DNA of 64,000 nt, taken from contig OX439042.1 in assembly GCA_949317995.1 (NCBI GenBank), positions 20,253,174 to 20,317,173 of the forward strand. Reading direction: 5' to 3'. How positions within the stretch are numbered: the stretch's first letter is position 1; each line of letters begins with the position of its first letter. Position numbers and translations under genes: made by a program. A model generated the notes under the pieces. It saw nothing but the letters and a program-made list of their open reading frames with translations, did not search any database and was not told the DNA's origin. Shown piece after piece: positions 7,145 through 61,200 of the stretch. Origin of the DNA: Acholoe squamosa (lineage: Eukaryota; Annelida; Polychaeta; Phyllodocida; Polynoidae).

Positions 7145-8438
7145 CACTGCAAAAATGGTGTTTAGATTTTAAACATGTTTAGGTCTAAACATGTTTAAAA
7201 CCTAAACATATAGGTCAGTTAGGTGTCTCATCGACTACACATTTAGGAAATGAACACTTTTATTCTAACTACATAAACATTTATGCTAAACATGTTTAGA
7301 TGTTTAGATTTGAGACAGTTGAATAATAGGTGTTTAGAATTAAACATCAATATGTTTAGATACTTGGATGTTGAATCCACACCAGGTAGCAGCACTACCT
7401 TTGAATGGACTATCTGCACACAGTTATAATCAATTGTTGTGACAAATGTCCCCAAATCCCATGTTTATCATGGTTTCATTTCATAGAATGTCATGTGAAT
7501 AGAAAGGGCAATAGAAAATTGACTAGATTCACTTCATGCCACCATCATTACCATAAAATAATCAATAAACTCCATGACTGACACCTATTTGATGTTATTC
7601 TGCAATAGATAAGGCAATGTCCTTCCTGCCAAGCTGTTGGTCGGGAGGCGTGGCGCAGTCGGTAGCGCGTCCGCTCACAGGCCGTAAGGTCGTGGGTTCG
7701 GTTCCCGGCCCGGCCGGGGCATAGTGGTGGTTCCAAACGTCGCCGTAAGGTGTCGTTTGAGTTCCTCCCTGCTCTGGCTAGGCTGTGCTGGAAAGTCTCT
7801 CGGCGGTCATGGCAGACAAATGACTTGAAACAGGCCTGTCCATCTCTCACTATGCCTATGTAGTGACGGATGTTAAAGAACCATTGCCTCGGTAAATGTG
7901 TAGGGGCGTGAATTCTACCTTAGCTCCCTCTAGTGTACGGGTCCGGGTTTCACGCCACGGGACCTCTCACCCTTGACGTGTCCAAAGGGCACATAGGTGA
8001 GGTTAAAATTCAAAGCAAAGCAAGCCAAGCTGTTGTACTTTCTCAAGTCTCTCACTCTGATGCAGTGTGTATTATATGTACACATATATAGGTGTGGCTG
8101 ACATCTTTCGAGACTTTGACAAGTAAATACCTGCTGATGCCCCCAAGTAAATGAGGAAAAAAACAAAATATATCTCTGTTTTTTAATTCATACATGTCTG
8201 CAAACCTTAACTCTCCATCAAATCATTTAAACATCTATACACAAAAATTCTTAAACACCTAAACACAAAAATTCATATATCTAAACACAAAAGTTTTAAC
8301 CTAAACACCTACATTTCTAAACACTTGAGCTAAGCACATTGTTTGGCTAAACATGTTTAGGAAATTAATGTGATTACAAAAACGTTGCAAGAATATGTTT
8401 AGAATTGTGTTTAGGATCTAAACACCATTTTTGCAGTG
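7145..8438. mobile_element. DNA element with CACTGCAAAAATGG ends, flanked by TA
   Basis: Terminal inverted repeats of about 23 bp begin CACTGCAAAAATGGTGTTTA at both ends. TA lies on each side (7143-7144 and 8439-8440). The interior is AT-rich, full of AAACATGTTTAG and AAACACAAAAATTC words, and has no transposase. Excluding the SINE inserted at 7640-8023 (plus one 12-bp duplication), the element is about 0.9 kb. The target can be read from the neighbouring 38-bp tandem repeat, which contains the uninterrupted junction ATAACATATGCTCATG, so the TA duplication is well supported. Tc1/mariner or ISL2EU-like origin is possible but not shown. Confidence 0.75.
7640..8023 (+). mobile_element. tRNA-headed SINE, 384 bp, with 12-bp target duplication
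   Basis: The left part resembles a tRNA gene. It has a pol III A box (TGGCGCAGTCGG, 7651-7662) and B box (GGTTCGGTTCC, 7695-7705) at normal spacing, followed by a non-tRNA body and a CAAAGCAAAG-type tail. It is bracketed by perfect copies of GCCAAGCTGTTG at 7628-7639 and 8024-8035. This identifies a retrotransposed SINE rather than a working tRNA; the anticodon arm does not fold convincingly. It sits inside the DNA element at 7145-8438 and is therefore younger than it. An antisense open frame across it is incidental. Confidence 0.85.
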
Positions 8439-19135: not shown

Positions 19136-20436
19136 ATGGATTAGATTAATTAGATTAGATTTTTATTGAAGCGGACTCGTTCTGAGGGAACGGTTTTCCG
19201 TGGCCATTTCACATCTTTACAATCTTAGAGAGGGAAAAGTCACGCTTAACTAGGTCAATTACAGAGTAAGTATATATAGATTTAGATATGATGACTAGGC
19301 TGCAGGATCATAATCCTTAGTCAGAGCATGGTAACGAGTTATAGGTCCAGCTTGCCAATGGCATTTTTAAATCGTAGTTTTATTAACTCTCCTATGTGAC
19401 CACTGCCAGTGTAAAATGAACAGTAATCAATAATTGGGCATATCATGGCCTTATATATCTTGATGCTTACATTAGTGGTCATTGATTTGCAAAGTTTACA
19501 TAATTTATATAATTTGTTACCAAATGTCTTTTTTTTAACTTATTTGTATGTGGAGTGAGACTTAGGGCACTATCAAATTCAACTCCTAAGTATGTGTAAG
19601 TGGTACAGCTTGGCAATTCATGGCCTCCTAGAATTAATTTCGGCTCTTCAATATTTTTCAGTTTGTGTGGGGTACCAAAATGCATGTACACATGTTTTTT
19701 TCTTTGTTTTCAGTCATGAAATTCACATTTCACCAGGCATTAACATGCATGAGGTCTTCCTGTAATAACTGGTCTGCAGATTCTTTGCTGTCAGCTGTGC
19801 TGTATATTACCACATCGTCTGCATACATTACATATTTACAATTTTGAAGACAATTTGGTAGGTCATGAATAAACAGGACAAAAAGCAGCGGACCTAAAAT
19901 TAAACCTTGGGGTACCCCGAATTTGACTTCCGTTTGTTGTGAGGATTTCCCATTTGCAACAGTTTCATGTGAGTGATGTGCTAGATAGCTTGTTAACCAT
20001 TTTCAGTTTTCCGTGTATATTTAGGTTATAAATTTTCTCAATTAACTTGGGGTGGTGGACACTATCAACAACTTTGCAGTAGTCAATGTAGCATGCTGTG
20101 GTAATTTTGTTGTCATCACGGCTGTCATAAAGATCCTTTAGATAATGAAAAATAGCATCACTGGTTCCACGGTTAGGCCTGAAGCCAAATTGGTTCTTAC
20201 AGAGGATATTTTCATTTTCCAAGTGGCTAATTAAGACTTTGTGGATTAACTTCTCTAGAAGTTTACCCGGCAGCGGTAAGAGAGTGATGGGACGCCAGTT
20301 TTTTTATGTTGTTAAGGTTTCCCTTCTTTGGGATGGGGACCAAGGTCCCCTATGAGCAGCTTAATGGGAATGTTCCCTCGTTAATCAAGTTCCTGAAAAA
20401 AAGTAGTCAATTGGTCAGTGATCACTAATAGGGCAT
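19136..20436 (-). pseudogene. Decayed non-LTR retrotransposon, reverse transcriptase domain
   Basis: Read on the minus strand, several frames together give the conserved blocks of a LINE reverse transcriptase in order. These are PIPKKG and RPITLLP-like (about 20340-20270), NQFGFRPNRGTSDA (about 20190), YIDYCKVVDSV (a damaged LDLSKAFD-type block), GVPQGLILGPLLF (about 19920) and YADDVVIYS with the catalytic Asp pair (about 19830), followed by TYLGVEFDS (about 19590). Frameshifts and a stop (after HVNAW, near 19720) separate the blocks, so it is inactive. The 3' end carries AATAAAAATCTAATCTAATT, a short-repeat tail as in CR1/Jockey-type LINEs. Endonuclease and ORF1 were not found, so the copy is 5'-truncated. 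Confidence 0.85.
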
Positions 20437-23500: not shown

Positions 23501-23523
23501 CAAAAAGATCTTGGAGTCTGTGC

Positions 23524-23709
23524 CCGGGCCTCCCTAGCCTATTTAAAAGGGTCTATTTCTCCTCTTTCCTATCCCCTCGGGATGTGTGTGGTGCACATAT
23601 GCGCGGGCACTGACACATTCCCCTGTGAAATTGTGTAATGTAATTCTCGCCATGAATATGACCTTAGATGTCCAAATGGCGTTAAACATCTATTACTCAC
23701 TCACTCACT
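23524..23709 (+). mobile_element. Short SINE, 186 bp, with target duplication
   Basis: The segment matches 40610-40792 along its length (TATTTAAAAGGGTCTATTTC, GTGGTGCACATATGCG, GGCGTTAAACATCTATTACT) and ends in ACTC repeats. It is flanked by near-identical 11-bp copies, GGAGTCTGTGC (23513-23523) and GGGGTCTGTGC (23710-23720). Independent flanking duplications at both copies show retroposition. No pol III boxes are evident, so it may be a truncated SINE or a LINE tail. Confidence 0.75.
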
Positions 23710-24379
23710 GGGGTCTGTGCTGCCCCCTGTTGGCCATCAAACGTACCTAGAACGCGTGTATCTCGAGTAGGTATATCAAAATATTTCTAGTTGATTTCTT
23801 AATACATTTTTGTATAAGATGGAAACTTGCAAAATACCTGCACAGGAATGTTTGGGTGGACGTAATTGCAAATTGCCTGCTCGTTATGTGCGACACAAAT
23901 CAGAATCCTCAGCTTGTAAACATACTAAAATCAATTTCCAGGAATGTCTGAAACAGGTGAGTTTAACCTTTAAAGAACACCTAGAGTTTTCGGATCTGCC
24001 TCAAAACTTAAAGATTTAAGACAATTTTCTCTATCAATGACTTGTCAGAATTGAAAATATGCACCATGTGTAGCCAGGACCCGCTGGACATCCATACTGT
24101 GGTAGAGGTTAGCGGGCAGCTCAATATAGTACATCAAAATTTTGGGTCTCCCCCCTGCTTCAGGCTCAGAGAGATACAAGTCCCCACGTGTAAGCCATGC
24201 CTCATATGCAAGGTACTACGGTATATGCTGCTGGTACCTTGAATGCCAACCTTTTAGAGAGGGATACTATTTGGGAGTGGAACAATGGCGTTAATAGATT
24301 TTGAATACTGACTGAGACACCGTAAGGCTTGAACAGCAGCACGACTGAGTCACCCATTTCAGCATACAGCACCGGTTAT

Positions 24380-37100: not shown

Positions 37101-40100
37101 CGCATGGACGTTATCGCAGCAGCTGATCCTCTGCTGGAACATTTTCTCCAACAGCATACATATGTGAAACAATTGCAGGAAACTCGTGGAAGTGGATCCA
37201 CAACTGATGAGAGGAAGTGTTCATAATTTCCTTCCTTGGGCAGGGTCGGGGTGGGGTGTTATTGGCAGTGCCCTTTAGGTTTTGTAAATGTATATATTTT
37301 TGGGAGCGACACCCCGGTTGCTAGGGACCTGGCAAAGGCAAATTATGTAGTAGAAAAAGTAACATTTTTGCTGTTTTGTTTTTTCTAATAATGGGATTAT
37401 AAAATAGTGCATCAAGTATGTGATGCAAATTTCTAATATCTTTCAGATTTTGTGATGCATTTTGCTGTGGGATGTTTAGATCCTTTCTGATAAGGATTTT
37501 AACACCTTTTCTAGTACATTTACTATTTAAAATAACCCTTCATGAAGATTCTTATCAGTAGGGAGGTGAGGCTGATAAGGGCCGCACTGATTGCTGTGAC
37601 GTCACTGCTGCTCCCTAGAATTAATATCCTCCTGCTCAACTAACGCCTAAAGTCAGTGTGTGGGGGGGATAACATTGTTTTATTCAAGTATTGTTACCTG
37701 TGTTATGGGAGTAAAAAAAAAGAAAGAGAAGAAATTTCAGGGTAGAACCTGAGGCATAAACAGATATATGGGGGCAAAAAACATGGAAAAAATGTAAAGA
37801 ATCCTGCTTGTCAAATTTGCATCAAGGTGTAATGCTACCTGAACACAACATCTGTATTCTAGGCTTCCACAGTAATGGTTTCATGATAGCTACAGCCTAT
37901 TTACCATGCTGTCTAATGAGAAAGCACATCCATATACACTTTGCATTAAAAATATATACGTATGGCTAGGCCAACTAACCAGTCCCTAGGTGAGTAATTT
38001 AAGAGTGGCAGACGATGTAGAAGTTACACTTTGTATACCCCGAGTTTTTCACATATACACACACATATGTATCTTTTTTCGAATCATGCATAAACAGAAT
38101 GAACCTGACAATAACATCCATCAGTTAGCAGTAAGGTAATGAGCATTAAAGCTATAGCGTAGGTTTGCAGTCTATGCTTTATATCTGGATTCTCTGTATG
38201 TCTTTTCTTTACCTTACGATGGCTTTATTTCTGTAGTTTATGCTTACATGTTTTGATGTATGCTATATTTTAGTATGAATGACACCTTTCACTTTTTCAT
38301 CCCACATTAGCAAAGCACGTACTGTATAAGAAATATGATCAGCCTTAAACTGAGCAGGAAGATATGGGAAAAAAATAGCGATAAGAATTCGATACTTAAT
38401 ATTGCTACTTGTGTACCCTGAATTTTGGTTAGTTTCAACCAAAAAGGACATTACTTCATACTTGTAAGAGAAGTGTAAACAAAATTCCAATGGCATAGAC
38501 CTATACGTGTATGAAATCACTCCCACCCTCTCGAAACAATGCGTGTAATATGTGATTGTGTTCCACTATATGTGCTATTTTTCACGCACGTAAAGTTGTA
38601 AATGTGATTGTGTTGATGCATGTAGCTTGTAATGAAATGTTCCAAAATCCCTACCCTTCGACCCAAAGCTTAAGTCAGTGCACCTATTTGCAAAAAAAGA
38701 TAATGTCAGCTCATGTATCTACCCTCAGTTACATCTGAAACCCCCTTTTACTATTTACTTTATAAAAGAAATATGAACTGTAATATTGAGGAAGTGAAGT
38801 GAACGATGATTCGGCGATGTTTGACAACAATCAGTAATGAGATAAAGTTAATATTTTTTTTTCTTTAGGCCACACCAAAAATATAAGTTGGTCTATGGAA
38901 TTGGGTTTCGAACTATTTTTTTTTTTTTTTGGGGGGGGGGGGGGGTTTGTCCAATGGATTCCTTGCTGGGAAAGTAAGGCACAAGCAATTTTCTTTTTTA
39001 TTTCAAAGAAAATTTTGCCAAACATAACAGAGAAAACTTGCAGAAAATGAGGCGAGCATAATCCGTAGACATGATTTTTTTTCAAAGAAAAAAAAACTTT
39101 GCTTTTCCGAAAATATGGACAGAGTGATCCGTAGACCAACTTATGTTTTAGGTGTGGCCTTAGTAGACGTTTCATTTGTCCTAATATATGCACGTTTTTT
39201 TGTTACCCCTCATATAGTTCAACGACTGAATAGTGCCCTTGCCCAGTATCAGGAAAAGTACCCTCCTTTGCATACGGTAAGAACCACCAACTAACCATAA
39301 TATCAAATTTGACTATGCATAGTTGTATATAGAGCCATGTCAAAGTTTATGTTGTGTATGAATTATGTCACGATAAACTCTTAAAGCCAAGGTCTAAAAA
39401 TAAGAATAACAAATCATACCAGTTTACAAAAAAAGTATCACTGAGCCTTTGATATAATCATTTCACATCAAACTCTGCAACATATGCATTTTTGTAATTG
39501 CTACAGGCTACGGAAAGTGCTGAACTGCCATGGCTAACCGACAAAAAGTAAGCTACCAGTATTCTATTTTACAAACATTTGTGTGCTTTTATTATATCTC
39601 TGACTGGTCACCAGTCGATTTGATACAGGACCAACATATCTGGTTAATTTTGAGTGCATTTCCACTTTTAGCTTGATGTCCCCGTTACTGGTTGAGTATG
39701 ATGCTAATCTACAGACACTGAGGGAACAAAACGAAAACTATCAGGTATGTCCTCAACATGGCTGTTACATGTACATCGATCAAGTTGTGTTAAGTAGTCT
39801 ATGAATTTTACATAAGTACACATGTGCCTTTCATATCTTCATTTCGTTAAGCTTTGTCATGTCAAGGAACGGGACGTAATGAAAAATGTCTTAAAGATAC
39901 ATCAGTTTCAAATGTTCAGATATATATTAGGCAAGTGTCCAATATGCTCACGATTTGATATATTATGTCATCGTTTTTATACCATTTTACTTTCTCCCCT
40001 TCCGCATTCAGTCTAGTCATCGGGAGCTACGATTACAAGTCGACAAACTTGTTGCTGAGAATAAAAGGTATTTGACCATATCAAAGTGATTTTTCAATGT

Positions 40101-43100
40101 ATTTCAAAAATGACACTGGACTATCAGAATCAGCAAATAATTTAAAAAAGCAATAATTAAACCACTCTTAGTATTTGGGCTTGCACATTTAGGCAAACAG
40201 TTAAGGGTAGATGTCTTTTCATGTCATGATGTGCCATCATGTTAAATTGGTTTGTTCATATGTACATAGATTGGCACGTGAGCTGAAATCTGCCGTAGAG
40301 ACACAAATGACGGACCTCCCCGTAGATACCGGAGGACAAACACTGGACGATGACCAGCTGGTCGCTAACCTCCAGGCGCAGCTCCAAATGGCCCTACAGG
40401 TGAGTTGTAGTGAAAATATCGCCCATAGCTTAGCTTGCTGACTGTAACTAGAGTATCCAATGAATCAACCCAGGGTTGTACATCAGCTCGCTCTTTGATC
40501 ACTGAAGTGGCCAAAACACAGATAGAAACCAAAACATTTATCATGGGTCTGGCCCATAACAAATTAAACAAGCCATAACTGGAATGTATTACATGTTCCA
40601 GGAGAAAGAGGGCTTCCCTAGCCCACTTAAAAGGGTCTATATCTCCTCTTCCTATCCCCTCAGATGTGTGCGGTGCACATACGCGTGGGTACCGACACTA
40701 CCCTCTGTGAAATTGTCTAATGTAGTTCTAGCTATGAGTGTGACCTTAGCTGTCGAAATGGCATTAAACATCTATTACTCACTCACTCGCTTCAGGAGAA
40801 AGACTCTGCCATGGAGATGTGGCAGGCAGCAGTACAGGAGGTAGATCGCCTGGAGCAGGAGACTAAGGTAGGTACACATAAACCTCCATGGTGAAGATAT
40901 ACTCCAGGGTACCAAGGGATTAAACAGTTGGCTGCCGAGTTATACAGCTTGTATCTTGTACACAGTGTACTTGTTTTATGTGCCAGCCTTTCGTGGTGGT
41001 GGGTCTATTGTATCGGATAACTGGCGTTTGGCTTTTCATCCAGTATTTCAATTGATATCCATGTGTTTATAACAAGTCTGTATAACCAGCCTTTGTCTTT
41101 GCACATACTTTCAAAATAGATATAATTTACACCACGGTCATAATGTTATACACGTAGTTTCGTTTTGAACATGCATGCACGTCCAAACCTTTAAATTCTT
41201 CAATGTCTTGCTGATAAATCATCTACCATCTAATATACTGTATTCTATAGTATAATTACACGTCATTCATGTTGTTAATGTAAACATACGATTTCTGTAA
41301 TGGAAGTTCAGGTTGCTTACTGGGTATTTTATTTTACAAATGAAAAACCATGGAAAGTTGGAACAGCCAGAAAATAAGGAACAGGTAAAAACAAAATGGA
41401 AAAATCAACATAGAAATTTCATGAACACAACTTTTGCGTCAGGAACACACATTTTCATTGACAACATTACACAATTTTAAGACCAAGCCAGCTTTAATTC
41501 ATTTCCTATTGTCTTTCACTGAAAATTTAAGGAGTGAAGGTATTTTCACATTTCTGATTTTGTCAGCAAAAGCTTATACATGAGAGAATGCTTCATTTTG
41601 TGTGTTCTCCATTTTCTGATCTCTTTGACTTCTAATCTTTTTTTTTTTTTTTTTTTTTAATTTCTGATTTCATTTGCACATTAATTGCCATAATTAGAAA
41701 TCCCCAGTCTGTTCCACCATTGAGCATTAGGCTAGTGAGCTGCTCACCCAGTCTGTTCTGACTTGTTGTGCACCCTGGTTCCCTGCTGGGCATGTTGGTA
41801 CACCTGATGTCACACCTGTTTAAGTCTCACCTGTCTCTTGTCTGTCACTGCGCCATGTGTTTCCTGTAGAACCAACACTTCAACCCGCGCCTTGAGACGC
41901 TGGAGGCACACACACATAAGGTAAGTCCGAGAGAGCGTGCCTAACAGGTGACCACCTAATTAAAGACCATGCAGGCCCAGCAGCATTGGTAATATTTGGA
42001 CTCATTAAAGTTGATTGCAAGATTTTTAGACAGCTGTGCGGGTAAAGAATAAATGATCTGTTTTCAATGTGACATGTTTGCACAGAGTGAGTGACGTTGG
42101 GTTGTCATGAAATTCGCTCATGTGAACAACCGTCAAGTGATGGTAGCATTATTGAATGATGAATACATGTACCGTAATTTCCCGCGTATAAGGCGCGTCT
42201 TATACGCAGGGTTTTAGTTCTCACTGGATCCACAAAGGGGACACCAACAGCTTTCTTTTAATATACTACCGGTACTCTCCCATAATATTACATAAGGGGG
42301 TCCTGGGGGGCCAACTACATAGCTTTTTAAATTTTGAAAATCCATTCAGTAGAAGAAAAGTTATGAATTTTTTTTCTACCATATTCTAAAACTCTAGGTG
42401 TTTCTTTTACATGGAATGCGTCTTACGGTAGTTAAGATAGCATCGTCTGCTCTGTAGATTTAACCTGGTGTCTACTCCACTTGCATGTGTACATTGCATT
42501 ATAAAAATTGACTCCTGATCAGTTTACTTAAGCTATAAATTCAACTTTTTCATATTCCAAATCTTGCACCATTTTGCTTAAAGCAACATGGACGGTTAAG
42601 CATTATAATTGCATGTGTTATGCTATGGCTATCGCAAAGAACGCTTATTAGACTAGTAGTGGGAGTAACGAGATTCTAAACTCTCTGGTAGGAGGGACGG
42701 TCTAAACTGAAGAATCCCATCATATTCTGTCAAAGAATGATCACTTCCTTATCAAGTGTAGATAATTGAGAATTCCTTACAATTGCCAGATTCGTAGTCA
42801 GTACAACAGGACCGTATCAGAGCTGACAACTGAGGTGAACGCCCTGCAGGAGGAGCTGAAGAAAGCCAAGAACGAACTTAAGGCCTCCAACATCCAGGTG
42901 ATGGACCTACGCCGCACCCTGGAGGAGATGAAGAACCAACTTATACGTAAGGTATGTGTCCATGCATCGAGTCAGTTTTAGGTATGTTCAGTAATAGCAG
43001 GGAAATTTGCACATTGGAACATTAGGGTCGTCTCTTTGCACTATCATTTATACATGTATCAGTTCATACACATGCTTGACCATTGAAGACCTATATGCTG

Positions 43101-46100: not shown

Positions 46101-49100
46101 CTACGTTTATGGCCTACGCGGCGACTGCTGAACCTCTCTATTAATGTAATCAGGGTCCTGGATGGGTGGGGGACTACTCAGTCATGCCTCAGTAGTTCTG
46201 CTTGGGCAGGAGTAGGGTCAGTGGCTTAGGTGACCAAAGGGGCTATCAAAATAAAGTGGTGGAAGGGGGGAAGGTCTTATCCAGCACCAATCTCAGATCG
46301 CAGTAAGAGTATTATGCTACAGGTGTAGATTGATGTTAAGATATCAGTAAAGCTGTATGTATAATATAGCAGGGTTCCCACACATCATGGAAAGTCATGG
46401 AATGTCATGGAATTAAAAGTTGTCAAGGAAAGTCATGGAATTTCTGAAACTTCTTCTTGAGTCATGGAAAGTCATGGAAAATAGGAAAAAATGAATATTT
46501 ATTGCAAAATCCATTGGAGTGGACTTTCTTGCACTTCAATTGCAAGAACTTTGCCGGGAGGTCAACCCCAATAATATCCAAATAAAGTTAAAAATGTCAA
46601 AAACTTCATGGAAAATTTTGATTTTTGTCATGGAAAGTCATGGAATTTGAGTCTAGGGACTTTGTGGGAACCCTGTATAGGGTTGGATTGATGTAATCCT
46701 GTTTTTTCCCACTTTCTCAGCTCTCTTGTTCAACGCCCCCTCTTACTGGTAACTGGTTACCATTTGAACTGCTCTCATTTAAATTGCTGTCTAGTTTTAT
46801 ATGTTTTGATGATTATGATTTGTAAGTGACTGATGTCCTTCCCTACAGACACACACAGGAGGGCAAGCAGAACCTAGCGGAGATAGAATCATTACGGCAA
46901 CGGTTAGAGAAACTGGGCTTGGAGTTTGAGGGAGCCAACAGTGACAGAGTACGCCTTATGGAGGAGGTGGATGAACTTAAGAAAAAGACACAGGCCCTTA
47001 CACAGGAGAGAGATGCAGGGGAACGCAAGTACAAGAAAGAAGTATGACTTTCATTACAATCAATTCAACTAGAAGAGAAATAGAAATGTTGAAATGAAGC
47101 AGGCTTATGTCCAGTAATTACAGACATTTGGAGAGCTGTTTTGAATATTGCCCTCAGTGTTTGCTTTGTCCGATGCCTCGGTAAAGACCTCCAATCTTCT
47201 GTTTTTGAAAGTTAGACGCCCATGGAATAGGATGAATGCTGTTAAATGTTCTTTAAAGACTTTGTTATACTCCAAAGTATATCAATCATATCTAACTTCA
47301 TGGGATTTCCACAGATTACACTGTTGGAGCGGGAAGGGAAGCGTAAAGCCACAGACTATGAGACGCGGCTACAGGCCGTGGAGGATGGACATCGACATGC
47401 CATGCTGGAGTTAAGACAACTACTCTCATCACAACAACGGATGAGTGCAAAGTAAGATAACCTTTGATAGAATCATATCAAGATTTTTTAGATTATTTTA
47501 TCATGACTTAAGAAACTTTCTGAAGTTAGCAGCCCTTGGTGCCGGGTAGTTTAATGCAACTTTTTAAAAGCATTATTGGAGATGCCCTTAGCATCTCCAT
47601 TGTATTCACATGGGAGGTCGATTGCACACCAAATCGGACAGTCCAATAACCCTTGAGTCGACCTGTGCAATAGTAAATTACCTTATTTGATAATTTCTGT
47701 TTAGAAATTTAGCCAAATTACAACTGCTTTATATTGCTTATATGGACACATTATTCATCTTAATTTTGAAAGTGTATACAAAGCTTCGTTTTACTATTTT
47801 GTCATATTTTGTTGGTTCATTTTGTTCTTATAAGACTAGTCGTAACAGGGTGATACTACCCTCCGCCCAGGCATGCACCAATTCAACCCACCCTCCCTAC
47901 TCAAACCTTGCCTATAGTTAAGTAATTATAGCCTGTACACAGCCTAGTCCGCATGCACTAATTCAACCCATCCTTCCCACTCAAACCACGCCTAGAATTA
48001 AGTAATTATAGTTGGTACACAGTCCAGTCCACATGCACCAATTCAACCCACCCTCCCCACTCAAACCTCGCCTATAATTAAGTAATTAGTAGCTATTAGT
48101 ACAGCGTTCAAGAACAGGGAGAAATCGCATACTGTAAGACTGTATATCAATTTGCAGGGACAGACTGATACCTACACATCGTCATAGTGCATTTAAGACA
48201 GGGGTAGCTATACTCTATAAAACAGGACCATGCTTGCCGCTATGAACTCCTGAAACATCATCATATAGGTATATGGGACTGCTAAGGTGTTAAGTTGCCT
48301 TAAAATATCGTCAAATTCCCTTCATGGCTGCATTTTGGAAGCTAACTTTCTTATGCTTGACCATAGGTGAAAATAAACATCACCATGATGATCGCCAGCT
48401 CGAGCTACCCTTTATCTATAGGTCACACTATGGGAAACTCCTATTATTAAGGGAGATACGATTTATTTAGTAAAACTGCCAGTTCTTGGACCTCTCTGCC
48501 AGTGCCTGGACTGGCGTCTGCCCCTGCGTCCCAAAAAGACCTTTATTTCGATCCATTCCTTCCTCGGACCTGCTCTTTTTCGCCGGTGACACTTAAAACA
48601 GATAGGTTTTGGCTGGAGGTAGCGCTACCACACCCTGGATAGTGCACAGGTGGACCGGCTGGGGCCGAAAAGGCTTCTAGTCAAAAAAATTATTTCGCTT
48701 ATTGTTTTTCGAAACCGATTTTTTAGGGGGGCATGTTTTTTAGGGGGACGAAACACCCCAGATTGATACCAAACATTCCATATCCGCGCATATTATTTGC
48801 ATAATTAGCATAATTATGCAGTATCTTGGTACTGTTCAATATAATATAGATATGTTCCATTGGTCCCTTATAGAATTCATATGCTTACAAGTATAAACTA
48901 CTGACTGCACCTAGTGACTAGTGGAATCTGAACAATAGAAAAGAAATACCCCTCCCCTACCTTCCTATAGCATCAAACAAGTTATTCAATGGAGGCAGCC
49001 ATTGCTTGATCACATGCTTAAACCTTTTAGATCCAAATGCTAGTTACCAGTGCATTATCACTGTTTATAAGCTTTACACATCAATACCTGCACCCACCCA

Positions 49101-52100
49101 GGGCACATGCCCAGTTTGCACTGAATGGATGTCTTTCCATTTCTCCATTCTCTGGTGTTTGATTGAAAATGTTGACGTCATTCTGTGTTTTAATTTGTGT
49201 TTTAATCTGTGTTTTTATGGTACATATATTGAGTTTAAGGCTATAACAGGTTAGTGTTAGTACTAAGGTATGATAGTAATTACTCACTATTTGTCAGCGG
49301 TTAATCAATATATGTTAGTAATTACTCACTATTTGTTAGCAATTAGTCAATACATGTCAGTATTTACTCACAATCTGTCAGCAAATAGTCAATATATAAC
49401 AGAGAAATAGCCATTGATTCAATTGTGCATCCTGCCTTGACTGGTATTTGTCAAGATATGTCAGTATCTATGGACTATTTGTCAGCAATTAGTTAATATA
49501 TGTTAGTAATTATTCACTATTTGTCAGCAATTAGTCAATACATGATAGTAGTTACTTACATTTTATCAGCATTTAGTCAATATATGTTAGTAATTGCTCA
49601 CTATTGACTAATATCTGACAAATTGTGAGTAATTACTGACATATATGGAGTAAGTGTCAGTAATTACTCACTATTTATCAGCAATTAGTCAATACATGTC
49701 AGTATTTACTCAGAATTCACCAGCAATTTTTCAATATATATTAGTAATTACTCACTATTTGTCAGCAAATAGTCAATATATATCAGTATTTACTTACAAT
49801 TTGTCAGCAATTAGGCAATATATGTCAGTATTTACTCACTTTGTCAGCAATTAGTCAATATACGTCAGTACTTAGTCACTCTATATCAGCAATTATCAAT
49901 GCATGTCAGTATTTACTCACAATCTGTCAGCAAATAGTCAATATATAACAGAGAAATAGCCATTGATTCAATTGTGCATCCTGCCTTGACTGGTATTTGT
50001 CAAGATATGTCAGTATCTATGGACTATTTGTCAGCAATTAGTTAATATATGTTAGTAATTATTCACTATTTGTTAGCAATTAGTCAATACATGATAGTAG
50101 TTACTTACATTTTATCAGCATTTAGTCAATATATGTTAGTAATTGCTCACTATTGACTAATATCTGACAAATTGTGAGTAATTACTGACATATATGGACT
50201 AAGTAATTACTCACTATTTATCAGCAATTAGTCAATACATTACATGTCAGTTTTTACTCAGAATTCACCAGCAATTATTCAATATATTTTAGTAATTACT
50301 CACTATTTGTCAGCAAATAGTCAATATATATCAGTATTTACTCACACTTTGTCAGCGATTAGTCAATATACGTCAGTACTTAGTCACTCTATATCAGCAA
50401 TTATCAATGCATGTCAGTATTTACTCACAATCTGTCAGCAAATAGTCAATAAATAACAGAGAAATAGCCATTGATTCAACTGTGCATCCTGCCTCGACTG
50501 GTATTTGTCAAGATATGTCAGTATCTATGGGCTATCTGTCAGCAATTAGTTAATGATAGTAGTTACTTACATTTTATCAGCATTTAGTCAATATATGTTA
50601 GTAATTGCTCACTATTGACTAATATCTGACAAATTGTGAGTAATTACTGACATATATGGACTAAGTGTCAGTAATTACTCACTATTTATCAGCAATTAGT
50701 CAATACATGTCATTATTTACTCACAATCTGTCAGCCAATAGTCAATGTATAACAGAGAAATAGCCATTGATTCAATTGTGCATCCTGCCTTGACTGGTAT
50801 TTGTCAAGATATGTCAGTATCTATGGACTATTTGTCAGCAATTAGTTAATATATGTTAGTAATTATTCACTATTTGTCAGCAATTAGTCAATACATGGTA
50901 GTAGTTACTTACATTTTATCAGCATTTAGTCAATATATGTTAGTAATTGCTCACTATTTATGAGCAATTAGTCTATATGTTAGTAATTGCTCACTATTTA
51001 TTAGCAATTAGTCTATATGTTAGTAATTGCTCACTATTTATTAGCAATTAGTCTATATGTTAGTAATTGCTCACTATTTGTCAGCAATCATTCAATATAT
51101 ATTAGTAATTACTCACAATTTGTCAGCAATTAGTCAATATATATCAGTATTTACTCACACTTTGTCAGCAATTAGTCAATATATGTCAGTACTTAGTCAC
51201 CAATTCAACTTGCGTTGAACTTACATTGTCAATTGACATTTGATATTTGACATTGAGGCATCTCCTTAGGACTGAGTCCTTCACCTGTGACATTTTATCT
51301 GAGTAGTCTTTAAAAAAGCTTTAATTCAATTTCTCCTCAGATGGAAAGAGGAGTGCCAGACAATAACTTCTAAGTTTGAAGCCAAGGTTAATGACCTAAG
51401 GAATGAGATAAGCCGGCACAAAAAGCGTAATGAAGAAGTGACAAAGTTACTGCGGGAGAGTCGTGATAAGACAATCCAGGCCGAACAGATGATCTCTGAG
51501 TACGCACGCAATATTAGACGTATGGAGGAGCGGGTCCGTGAGGCAGAGAGCCGTGCAGCTACTGCATCATTACAGGTTGGTGTCACTCCATCACATCTTT
51601 TAGCGTTTATTCAGCTATAACCAGAGTTTGAGTTCTACCCAGCGCGCATTCCCGAAACTGCCCTCATATGTGGCTCACAGAATTAACCCCAAGATTAACT
51701 TTTATATAAAGGTGTTATCTAATCATCTTTTCTATTTAGGAAAAATGAAAATAAATACCCTTTACTATTTAGGTATCACAACAAATGGCCCGGGCACGAG
51801 CGGGTTTAGCCAACAGTCAAACAGGTTTAATGGGATCTACCAAACTCACCAACGGGTAAGTATATAAAGATTTAGTTTCTTGTGAGAAAAACTGTGTTTA
51901 TAACAGAAAACAACACGACTGGCTTCTTAACACCGTTTGTACATAATATTTGGTATCATGGATACCAATGTAAATATTCCTCAGTGACGTTTTCCTTGTA
52001 TGATTATTGTTCTCATTACTTCCTTTGCCTGTATATACCTGTATATGATTTGTCCGTCTAAGCAAACTAATCAGAAAGATCAGAGTATTATGAAATGGAG

Positions 52101-55939: not shown

Positions 55940-56629
55940 TCAGTCATCATCTTCAGCCAGTTTGCCCTCTACATGGAAGTAAATGTTGAACATGTGCCCA
56001 AACCCCCGTTCCTCCAGGTACTGGAAGAGCTGCCCTCGGTCCGCATGTGGTGCTCGGCCAGCCGCCTGACGCATTGCAAAATAACGCTCCTCAAAGGGGC
56101 CAAATTTCCTGAAGTCTTCAATAGGCTTATCACCCATATCTACGTCCTCTCTCTCCTTCATAGTTAGTTTCTTCCATTGCATACGACGTATTCTACCCCA
56201 AAAGTCTTCCACATCATATAAATAACCCTCAAGGACAATAATACCTGGTTTTCCCGGAACATAAAATCCTGTCAAGTTAAGCTCTGCCCCAAACTCAAGC
56301 ATGTCCTTGCGTTTGATTTTACTGTATATATGATGGCTGTAAATCCACATGCGGCAGAACATATTATTTTTAGGGTCTGCACTCCGACCCTTTGGCTGAC
56401 TACTCTCTGGTTGTGGCTCACTGACAAAGTATTCCTCAGCATTGTCCTGTAGCCAGTCTATGAGTGAGCAGGTGAGCAGCTCCCCTGACTGCCAGCTGCT
56501 GTTCAGGTGGCTCCACATGGCTTCACTGAGCAGGTTGTGCTGGGTCCGAGAGAGAGATGCAGCCCGGAAGAAGATCTGTGGTAATACGGATGGGTAGTCG
56601 TATGGTAGGCGGCACACCAACTCCAGGGG
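55940..56629 (-). CDS. RWDD2 terminal exon, downstream copy (2A)
   Basis: This 690-nt exon encodes 229 residues and a stop, and is a second copy of the RWDD2 terminal exon. It begins at a good acceptor (TATATCTTTCAG) in phase 0, which would join to the first exon at 61830-62057 to give 305 aa. It carries the rest of the RWD domain (PLELVCRLPYDYPSVLP, DWLQDNAEEYF) and the DUF1115 region (MWIYSHHIYSKIKRK, LTGFYVPGKPGIIVLEG, DVEDFWGR). It ends KLAEDDD. There is no frameshift or stop, so selection seems to have kept it. No separate RWD-type first exon was found between 56630 and 58297. It is either an alternative last exon of the upstream gene, or a duplicate whose own first exon is missed. Confidence 0.85.
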   Translation of the reverse strand, partial: PLELVCRLPYDYPSVLPQIFFRAASLSRTQHNLLSEAMWSHLNSSWQSGELLTCSLIDWLQDNAEEYFVSEPQPESSQPKGRSADPKNNMFCRMWIYSHHIYSKIKRKDMLEFGAELNLTGFYVPGKPGIIVLEGYLYDVEDFWGRIRRMQWKKLTMKEREDVDMGDKPIEDFRKFGPFEERYFAMRQAAGRAPHADRGQLFQYLEERGFGHMFNIYFHVEGKLAEDDD

Positions 56630-58297
56630 CTGAAAGATATAGAAACCAATAACAGGTAAGTAAAGTGTTGTTGATTAATGAAATATAATATTTTTCGTGT
56701 AAGTAATGTTATGAAATCTGCAAAGTTTTGGTAAACTTCCTGAAATTGATTGTCCACAGACTAAATGGGCTACTTTTAGGCATATAACACAAATTCATGC
56801 AGTACTGCAATATTATACATCTTTGTAAAATTCTCCTGACTTCATGTACTTTAATGTTCTGCACCATGAATCATTTACCTGAATATTCTTAGCTTGTAAC
56901 TTTACTAGAGCCAGTTTATAACAGTTTTTTTTCTTATCATTTTATTGGTCATGATAGAGGTACAAAGTGGTTTACCTATACATGTCTTTTTTTTAATTAC
57001 CCCAGATAAATTCCTAACTTATCAAATACATTGATTACACCTTAGATATTTCCTAAAGAGGGGAGAGTTGGAGTGGAAGGTGAGCTCATTTGGCTGAAAA
57101 TGGTGACTGACAGACTGTCAACACAGATCTACTGCAAATACTTTTATTCTGGGGGAGTAGGAGAGGAGGTGGTCAGAACACCCTTTTTTCTTATCTTGCT
57201 GGTGTAATAGGGGGTTACTTACTTTATAACCTGATATGGTCTATCCTTAGTCTAACTCTTAGGGCTTAGGCAATTTTACTCGGAATGCTAAGGCGACTGA
57301 AGGATGCAGGTGTATGTACAGCCTGGTTTATACTACCGATGGGTTACTCATTGGTGCCAGCTAGGGGGTCTAATATATGGTACCGGAGTACTACTGTAGA
57401 ACAGAAGAAAAGCACAAAACAGGACTCTACCCGATGGTCCCTACATCATTGATTAGGGATTCTTAATATAATTTATATACCCTCTTTGAAGGTCAAAATG
57501 CAGCTTGCTGGCGGCTTTATACATTAAGGGGTTGGTATGAAAATATGGGTGTAGTCGTTGGGAAATTTGATCTGGGTGTACTGGGTAGTATTTCTTAACT
57601 ATATAAGGTGGGGGTGGTCTAAACGGGAGAAGAACTAATTCAATACTCACTGTGGATTACAGGTAGAACACCAATGACACAGACACCTCATTTTTTCTAA
57701 CATCAATCACATAAGCTACCCAAATGTTCATTTCATGTAGTTGTAAATGATACTAAACATATAAGTCACGGCTTATATAAAGCTCTTTACGGGTGCCCCT
57801 AATATCCCAATGCCCCATTTAGTAATGAACATCCCCCTTAGTTAAGTTTCAAAGTGACAGATTACTTAGTTAGTTTGTTATTAAACTCAGATGCTCGTAA
57901 TTAGAGAGATTAATCAATTTTCTTTAAATAAATTAAGTCAACGGTTAAATCGTTAAATAACCCTTTATATAATACCGGTATCAGTTCTCTCTTCTTCTAC
58001 ACAACACACAACAGCAAAATATGATTATAAATATTATGCTACAAATTATTAAACCAATTCTCGGAATGGTCTACTACTCAATATTGAGATGGATACAGAT
58101 GAAAGATAATTTGGCCTCATGGGTAGACTTCACAACAGTATGCATGGAATGAGAATACTCAATTGCTGCGCATATGATATGTTGAACATTGGAATACAAA
58201 GAGACAACAGAACATGGTGGAATGTTAATGACAAAAGTCGTTTTGTATACCAGATACGTGGACTGGCAGTACTGCCTCAAGACATCACATTTATACA
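56630..58297. other. Spacer between the two RWDD2 terminal exons
   Basis: 1.7 kb with no RWD-type first exon, no strong splice donor in a conserved frame and no clear transposon. It would contain the 3' UTR of the 58298-58996 exon. Confidence 0.5.
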
Positions 58298-61200
58298 TTA
58301 GTCATCACCCTCAGCTAGTTTTCCATCTACATGGAAATATATGCTGAACATACTCCCCAGCCCTCGTTCCTCTAAGAACTGGTAGAGCTGACCACGGTCA
58401 GGGATCCCAAGCTTCCCTCCCTGTACCTGCCTCACAGCAAAGAATCGCTCCTCAAAGGGACCAAACTTCCTGAAATCATCCACACTCTTGTCACCCATAT
58501 CCCAGTCCTGTTTCTCCTTCATAGTGATCTTTTTCCATGTCCACCGTCGCACACGTCCCCAGAAATCCTCTACATCATTATTGTACCCCTCAATGACTAT
58601 AATCCCTGGTTTGCCTGGGACATAAAATCCTGTCAGATCAAGCTCAGCTGCAATCTCCAGCATTCCTTTTCGTTTGACCGGATTACGGATATGGTGACTG
58701 TAGATCCACATGCGACTGAACATATTGGTTTTAGGGTCTGTGTCACGGTTCTTCTTTGGTTGACTGGACTGTTCTGCTGGTACATCAGCAGCAAAGTATG
58801 CCTCAGCATTGTCCTGTAGCCAGTCTATGAGTGAGCAGGTGAGCAGCTCCCCTGACTGCCAGCTGCTGCTCAGGTGGCTCCACATGGCTTCACTGAGCAG
58901 GTGGTGCTGGGTCCGAGACAGAGACGCAGCACGGATAAACACATGGGGTAAAATGGATGGGTAGTCATGTGAAAATCTGCACACCAACTCCAGAGGCTGG
59001 AAAACATAAATCAACACCTTCCAATTCCATCGCCTGTGTATCTCCCCAAACAAGGGTACCACGTAATAATGGAAATAACTGTGCCTATTGTACATTAATT
59101 CTTTTTTTTTTTCTTGAGCTGCCTTTTAAGTTGGATCTAATCTCCCTTCCCATGATCAGCAATTGGCCTACTTCACTCATCATAATTATTCTGCTGTATT
59201 AAGATGTGAGTAAATGTTACCATATCAGTAATTATATACATGTAGTGAGCTACTGGTATTATGTTGTAAAGCTGCAGGTACACAGATGGCTTCTGCTGCA
59301 CAGCATCGGCCATGGCAGCTGGCCACAAGACAGCTGACACTGTCAGCTTTCTTGCGGCCAGCTGCTGCAGCCAAGTGGCTGGCTGCGCGGCATCGGCCTC
59401 AGGGTGTTACACCAGTGGCATCGGCCGCAATGCATGTTCTGCGGCCAAAGCCGCACTGCCGATGCCGCAAGTGTAACTGCAGCTTAAGAGACGAGCCATT
59501 TATTACTACGGTAGTTGGAGGGGTAAGGATTGAGGTTGGTGTACTCTCTTGCTAGATAAGCTGTAAATAATCTTGACACACCCTTCTACTGAGGAATAGG
59601 AACTAATCAAGTTTATGAAATGAATCCCCCCCTCAAGAAAAAAATAATGCACTGGTAAAATGTATGTAGAATGATAAACACTGAAGAAAGTAGGCCTACC
59701 TCTCTATACAATATATCCGGGCACCACAAACCCGTCCCGCCTTTGGGAAAGTGCCCGTCCCCCCTTCGGGAAAGTGCCCGTTCCCCCTTTGCTTGTAAAT
59801 TATGTAATCATCTGTAATGTGATCAGGTAGATCATGGTATATTGTTTTATACTTGTTGTGAGCGATCAATAAAAAAGAAATGTAATAAAATATATAGATG
59901 GCATACCCCTGAATGAGTGAATACAGGGGTGGATCCATGCTTTTGAGAAAGGGGGGCGCACATCTTGGCCATGGGATGTGGGTAAATGGGTTGATGGACT
60001 CATCACAAGAGAAGCGCAGTGAGTTCGCAAGCGCAGCGAAGTGACTTTAATTGGGGGGTCTGGGGGCATGCCCCCCAGGAAAACTTTGAATTCTAGAGGG
60101 CATTTGGTGCATTCTGGTGCATTTTTAGACTCCAATCTATTGGCAGTTTTGGTATCATTTACTACAAAATATTTGTGGGTATGTGAATTTCCAGTAGCAG
60201 GATGAGATTGAGGAACAATGAGCCTGTGGGTGGGGACCCTCATTTCCAATCTCATCTTGCCCTCACCCCCAGCCCCACTATTCCTAATGACAGTCTCATG
60301 CCCTCACACCCTGCCCCCCCCCCAATCTTAGCATTCCCCAACTACCAGATTTCATCCTGTCCTCATCCCCAACCCACTATTCCTAATTCCAGTCTCACCC
60401 TGCCTTCACCCCCAATCTCACCATTCTCCTACTACAAGTTTGCATCCTACCCTATTGGCCACTAGCTGGTCTGGAGCTGGTTCCGGTGACACACTCTGAT
60501 AAGAACTGATAAGATGGGACCAGCATGTCCCTGGAAGTGGGTGTTAACCAGGGACAAGTTACCAATCATGGTATGTCTCATAAGTGGGTTTCACCTCAAC
60601 CAGCGAAATTCAAAATGGTGGCTCCACTAGGCCTCCACACTGAGTCCTATACTACCAGTCTCATCCCACCCTCACCCTAAGCCCCACTATTTCCCTACTG
60701 CCAGTCCCCTCCTGTCCTCACCCACCATAGCTCCAACCACAACCTCATCCACCCTCCTGCCTACCTCTCCATCTCATTTTTTACTATCTACCCTATATAT
60801 GAAGTCATATGATAATAACCAAAACATTCCTTATCTCATCTTGAAACTCTAGCCCAATCCGTTTTACTGTCCCAATTAAGCTTACTGTCACCACCAAGCC
60901 CAGAACTGATTGTGCACCCCTGCATCCTTTTGCTGGTGGGAGGGTGACAGTAGGGGAAGGGTGGAGAAAGGAAGGCAGTGGGAAGGGAGATCAGTGATTG
61001 GGGAGATGGGTACAGCGACTGACACTGGGGAGGGGGCATGGACAAGAGAAAGGAGGAGCAAGTATTGGAAGGCATCCTGAATAAAAAAAAGACAATCCAG
61101 GACTGCCCCTTCCATCCATCAAAGATATTCCTACCCTACACTAGCTTTCCCTCTCATCTTGATGCTCCTCCTTCCATCCAGCTGGGATGTACAGGGAAAA

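Follow-up and report, generated by a model that had tools for sequence, protein, structure and literature searches.

At the locus considered here, the same short sequence is found on both sides of a 183-bp insert, and each of its copies contains what appears to be a splice acceptor of a gene that is most likely SCLT1. This raises the question of how such a gene fares when a mobile element comes to lie across the border of one of its exons, and of which of the acceptors now present is put to use. These points were considered within the window, i.e., the whole 64,000-nucleotide stretch of DNA that was analyzed.

The insert and its direct repeats

The window sequence contains an exact 11-bp direct repeat, CAGGAGAAAGA, at positions 40599-40609 and 40793-40803, with a start-to-start spacing of 194, and the two copies flank an insert of 183 bp (40610-40792). 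Because a second, dispersed copy of the insert (23526-23709) shares the same ends, both ends of the insert can be fixed without making use of the repeat. The features of the region, each on the plus strand, are as follows.

40270-40399, plus strand: SCLT1 exon preceding the enlarged intron, with donor CAG/GTGAGT
40400-40795, plus strand: intron as it now stands, assuming use of the downstream acceptor; 396 bp, as compared to 202 bp in the reconstructed empty site, where the repeat is joined to a single copy
40599-40609, plus strand: upstream copy of the target site, CAGGAGAAAGA, containing the original acceptor (exon start 40602)
40610-40792, plus strand: sequence read as a retroposon insert, 183 bp, with tail (ACTC)3 followed by GCTT; second copy at 23526-23709
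40793-40803, plus strand: downstream copy of the target site, CAGGAGAAAGA, containing the frame-keeping acceptor (exon start 40796)
40796-40867, plus strand: SCLT1 exon EKDSAMEMWQAAVQEVDRLEQETK, with donor AAG/GTAGGT
23526-23709, plus strand: second copy of the putative retroposon, flanked by a terminal repeat of its own, GGAGTCTGTGC at 23513-23523 and GGGGTCTGTGC at 23710-23720

When the insert was used as query in a blastn search of the window, the second copy was found to be 85.9% identical over 184 columns, covering bases 1-182 of the 183 in the query, while the other matches obtained, 12 to 29 columns long, were at the level of chance. With regard to the target-site duplication that serves as a criterion for non-LTR retroposons, all 11 bases match at the SCLT1 insert, and 10 of the 11 match at the second copy. 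In random placements within the window, an exact 11-mer near both ends at a spacing of 194, with four bases of play, was encountered 578 times in 200,000. When 11-mers occurring more than twice nearby were set aside, 216 matches, counted per offset pair, were obtained in 300,000 placements.

Because the 11-bp repeat is exact and the second copy carries an 11-bp repeat of its own, the arrangement is read as a retroposon insertion with target-site duplication across an intron-exon border, as proposed in the initial annotation. That annotation had also described the repeat as containing the acceptor CAG and the first eight bases of the exon, and CAGGAGAAAGA does indeed span the border in this manner; the exon starts at 40602 and 40796, the exon end at 40867 and the donor after 40399 were likewise correctly assigned.

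The host gene and the class of the element

Twelve SCLT1 exons were delimited by homology together with AG/GT borders. Four of these (39672-39744, 40012-40067, 40270-40399, and 40796-40867) join as one open frame, as do six others between 42790 and 44681, with the last two (46849-47041 and 51341-51575) lying outside both joined groups. The integrity of the gene was accordingly checked in part, i.e., over ten joined exons in two groups. Exons corresponding to the approximately 45 residues of the human protein that follow 40867, between the two groups, were not located, nor were any before 39672.

When compared with provisional sequences of human proteins, the first exon group aligned to SCLT1 with 44% identity across 108 residues (91.3 bits, vs. 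27.3 bits for SDCCAG8) and the second with 35% identity across 271 residues (183 bits, vs. 70.1 bits for SDCCAG8). In Pfam, no family scored above cut-off with the first exon group, and CCCAP was the sole family to do so with the second (3e-12); to go by its name, CCCAP is the SDCCAG8 family, SDCCAG8 being a relative of SCLT1. The comparison with these provisional human sequences thus points to SCLT1 as the most likely identity of the gene. Moreover, since the alignment to human SCLT1 continues unbroken over the junction at QEK, the acceptor preceding GAGAAAGAC would be older than the insertion. It is also plausible that SCLT1 survived the insertion, given that the ten joined exons are open. 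A Protein Data Bank match of the first exon group to a coiled-coil protein (E 0.069) was weak and was taken as chance, and a search of viral_contigs for SCLT1 relatives, queried with 231 residues out of the 275 in the second exon group, yielded 38 pattern matches, none of which was confirmed.

As for the element itself, the homology of both copies starts at GGGC and finishes in TTAAACATCTATTACTCACTCACTC, with two extra bases (CC) standing between the terminal repeat and GGGC in the second copy. A simple-repeat or A-rich 3' tail is a feature of non-LTR retroposon insertions, and an (ACTC)3 tail is present in both copies. SINEs are short, dispersed, multicopy elements without coding capacity, with a head derived from tRNA, 5S or 7SL RNA that includes a polymerase III promoter; such elements have reportedly been described in gastropods and bivalves. 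The two copies found in the 64 kb are 183-184 bp long, and stops are present in all three forward frames of the second. Based on size, tail, direct repeats and the existence of a second copy, the element is likely a SINE, the class originally assigned to it, although a tRNA, 5S or 7SL head was looked for and not found. ARAGORN detected no gene in the window, nor were there Rfam matches at gathering score, with the reservation that worn heads can escape such searches. The RNA-family matches on the two copies, three in all, were to unrelated families (E 3 to 9.8). No support for an RNA-gene origin of the insert was obtained, no match being usable and the fold energy being ordinary (z -0.76), and no copies or relatives of the element were found in viral_contigs with a 33-base tail pattern. 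Between the two copies, 17 transitions and 7 transversions were counted among the 181 positions compared, alongside two gapped columns (K2P 0.149); dating the insertion from this value was abandoned, as two copies without a consensus yield no age.

Elsewhere in the window, at 19989-20225 on the minus strand, lies a reverse transcriptase fragment (RVT_1, 9.5e-07, 29.2 bits vs. a Pfam cut-off of 29.6) that probably represents a worn LINE.

It is possible, if doubtful, that the insert is instead the 3' end of a 5'-truncated LINE or an element of some other type. Such an origin would be in keeping with the lack of a tRNA, 5S or 7SL match at a usable score, and the worn reverse transcriptase fragment places LINEs in the window. 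Yet the homology of both copies starts at the same base, which random 5' truncation would seldom achieve, a point to be qualified by the two additional bases ahead of the shared start in the second copy. In addition, the exact string ACTCACTCACTC is confined to the two element copies when both strands of the window are considered, LINE ends having been compared by exact string alone.

Candidate acceptors and reading frames

A generic, approximate acceptor matrix was applied to every AG from 40400 to 40867. Three sites scored above 5, namely, 40602 (5.94), 40664 (10.62), and 40796 (9.45). By the same matrix, the 11 other SCLT1 acceptors score 2.36 to 9.52, a range that includes 40602, and among the 3766 AGs of the window, 40602 is in the top 6.6%, 40664 in the top 0.24% and 40796 in the top 0.69%. 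When the matrix was instead derived from the 11 acceptors of the gene itself, 40602 and 40796 were nearly equal (7.14 and 7.32, respectively), although this matrix is noisy, its 11 acceptors giving -5.92 to 10.47 on leave-one-out; 40664 was scored by the generic matrix alone. Three further features, all on the plus strand, are relevant here.

40578, plus strand: UAAC (-24), a candidate branch point for the original acceptor; loose motif match only
40662-40663, plus strand: AG of an acceptor internal to the insert, with exon start 40664, predicted to be strong by the generic matrix; absent from the second copy
40777-40781, plus strand: two candidate branch points within the insert tail, UUAC (-19) and CUCAC (-15); motif match only

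Pyrimidines account for 53% of positions -20 to -4 at 40602, as compared to 76% at 40796. Within 60 bases upstream, 40796 has the strict motif yUnAy at two positions, -15 and -11, and 40602 has none. Between -45 and -12, 40602 has matches to the loose motif UNAY at -24 and -43, 40796 has them at -19 and -15, and 40664 has none, as is also the case for two of the 11 known acceptors; branch-point motifs are common, and matches of this kind prove little. The AG at 40662-40663 is lacking in the second copy, which reads CTCGGGATG vs. CTCAGATG in the SCLT1 insert, and with two copies either state may be the ancestral one.

The original acceptor, 40602, is still intact upstream of the insert, with its tract, CAG, eight exon bases and the loose UAAC at -24. 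The initial annotation had counted two acceptors, 194 bp apart. Both copies are present as described, but the third acceptor, 40664, lying within the element, had been overlooked. The idea that the downstream acceptor takes its pyrimidine tract and probable branch point from the element is in agreement with the tract and the candidate UUAC (-19) and CUCAC (-15) seen in the tail. The further claim that the duplication recreated the splice site of the gene is true for the exon-side copy; the original, however, was never lost, and what the duplication added was a rival.

The consequences for the reading frame differ among the three sites. From 40602, the exon would be 266 bases long (leaving a remainder of 2 when divided by three), the insert being free of stops and the shifted frame reaching a stop in the exon. 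From 40664, the length would be 204, a multiple of three, with an in-frame stop inside the insert. From 40796, the exon is 72 bases long, again a multiple of three, and is open. Hence, the downstream acceptor is the sole open one among the three tested, as had been maintained for it from the outset. Judging from these frames, normal protein needs 40796, and productive splicing must skip the two upstream competitors; therefore, a working message is predicted to depend on 40796 beating both. The best donor-like site in the insert scores 3.52, as compared to 6.33 to 12.38 for the 12 SCLT1 donors, from which the donor matrix was itself derived and which it hence flatters. Because even the weakest of the 12 (6.33) outscores every donor-like site in the insert, the insert is unlikely to be used as a separate cassette exon.

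Proposed history and comparable insertions

Taken together, it is very likely that a short non-LTR retroposon, probably a SINE, was inserted across the SCLT1 intron-exon border, leaving three candidate acceptors behind. As deduced from the anatomy of the site, target-primed reverse transcription would have set the element across the border, in the sense orientation to judge by its tail. Because CAG and eight bases of the exon lay within the 11-bp target, an acceptor would have come to lie on each side of the insert. The exon-side copy would then have gained a pyrimidine tract and a likely branch point from the ACTC tail, with the intron-side copy retaining its own. At present, 40602 and 40664 would compete with 40796, both leading to early stops, and 40796 would be used sufficiently to keep the gene working. 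This history is supported by the like-sized repeat at the second copy and by the four-exon open frame that runs through 40796.

Of the three sites, 40796 is probably the main one in use. Its generic score is 9.45, as compared to 5.94 for 40602, and of these two, it alone has a strict yUnAy upstream. Counterpoints are the near tie of 40602 and 40796 according to the gene's own matrix and the generic score of 40664 (10.62), which exceeds that of 40796.

A different outcome, namely that the allele is mostly broken, with use of 40602 or 40664 leading to early stops and message decay and with the insertion being harmful and possibly rare, seems unlikely. It gains from the tract, AG and loose UAAC at -24 that the original acceptor retains, from 40664 being ranked first by the generic matrix and from the early stops that both sites yield, and the repeat copies, still identical, are compatible with a young age. 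By contrast, the tail makes 40796 a good predicted acceptor, both joined groups, ten SCLT1 exons in all, read as open frames, and the element differs from the second copy by 15% (K2P), a distance that permits an old insertion without demonstrating one.

It is improbable that unproductive splicing to 40602 or 40664 in some tissues serves to lower SCLT1 levels, in what would be regulated unproductive splicing derived from a retroposon. None of the three acceptors scores below the range of the other acceptors of the gene, and two are unproductive, but the AG of 40664, absent from the second copy, may be a recent change in the SCLT1 copy, and no branch-point-like motif is found between -45 and -12 of this site. 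That the retroposon and the target-site duplication jointly converted a once constitutive splicing event into a regulated three-way switch setting the dose of SCLT1, a cilium gene, is regarded as more improbable still. Finally, the notion that the repeat copies are alike by chance or through local duplication, with no insertion having occurred, could appeal to the shortness of the repeat and to nothing else, and is hardly credible in light of the second copy, which is dispersed, shares the ends of the insert and has a repeat of its own, and of the placement figures (578 in 200,000 and 216 in 300,000).

Insertion at 40599-40803 with 40796 as the favored acceptor can be compared with known systems. 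The closest case found is the canine Merle insertion in PMEL. There, a SINE (SINEC_Cf) lies at the intron 10/exon 11 border with a 15-bp target-site duplication, placed by a review at the 5' end of exon 11, on the exon side, with the original acceptor included. A rival acceptor is found within the SINE, and the length of the tail, or the tract that it makes, sets the balance between acceptors (PMC7349775; PMC6091007). Both loci combine a SINE, or in SCLT1 a likely SINE, at an intron-exon border, a duplicated acceptor region and a rival acceptor, predicted in SCLT1, inside the element. Unlike the SCLT1 insert, the Merle element is antisense, offers an oligo(dT) tract, alters coat color and has known spliced products, whereas the SCLT1 insert is in the sense orientation and draws its tract from an ACTC tail. 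At SCLT1, a full acceptor is found in both repeat copies.

A LINE-1 insertion at an RB1 acceptor, leading to aberrant splicing and retinoblastoma, similarly has a target site that touches a splice acceptor, although the duplication, as printed in that report, stops just short of the ag, unlike in SCLT1; the same source gives 4-20 bp as the length of target-site duplications for most human LINE-1 insertions (PMC4859970). In Introners, some families are described as drawing splice sites from the target-site duplication, including cases of the 3' site; these elements create new introns, whereas an existing SCLT1 intron was lengthened (PMC9860276). Accordingly, this type of event is already known, and what the SCLT1 case, as read here, adds is the sense orientation and the full acceptor in both copies of the repeat. 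No report of the SCLT1 insertion was found in literature searches, which did not use the gene name SCLT1.

The locus is an easily read natural example of an intron lengthened by an insertion that brings its own possible remedy. It involves a single intron and three candidate acceptors whose sequences are known, one of them productive, and can be readily tested with RNA reads from the source species, which would tell whether the acceptor that owes its tract to a retroposon tail can outcompete an older, intact acceptor 194 bases upstream.

Other features of the window were also noted. An open frame of 123 amino acids on the minus strand (7548-7919), for which Pfam gave no match at E 0.1 or below, is perhaps a repeat. 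Two neighboring open frames, also on the minus strand (55940-56674 and 58298-59125), each encode RWD and Prp3_C domains and are probably tandem genes of the RWDD2-like type.
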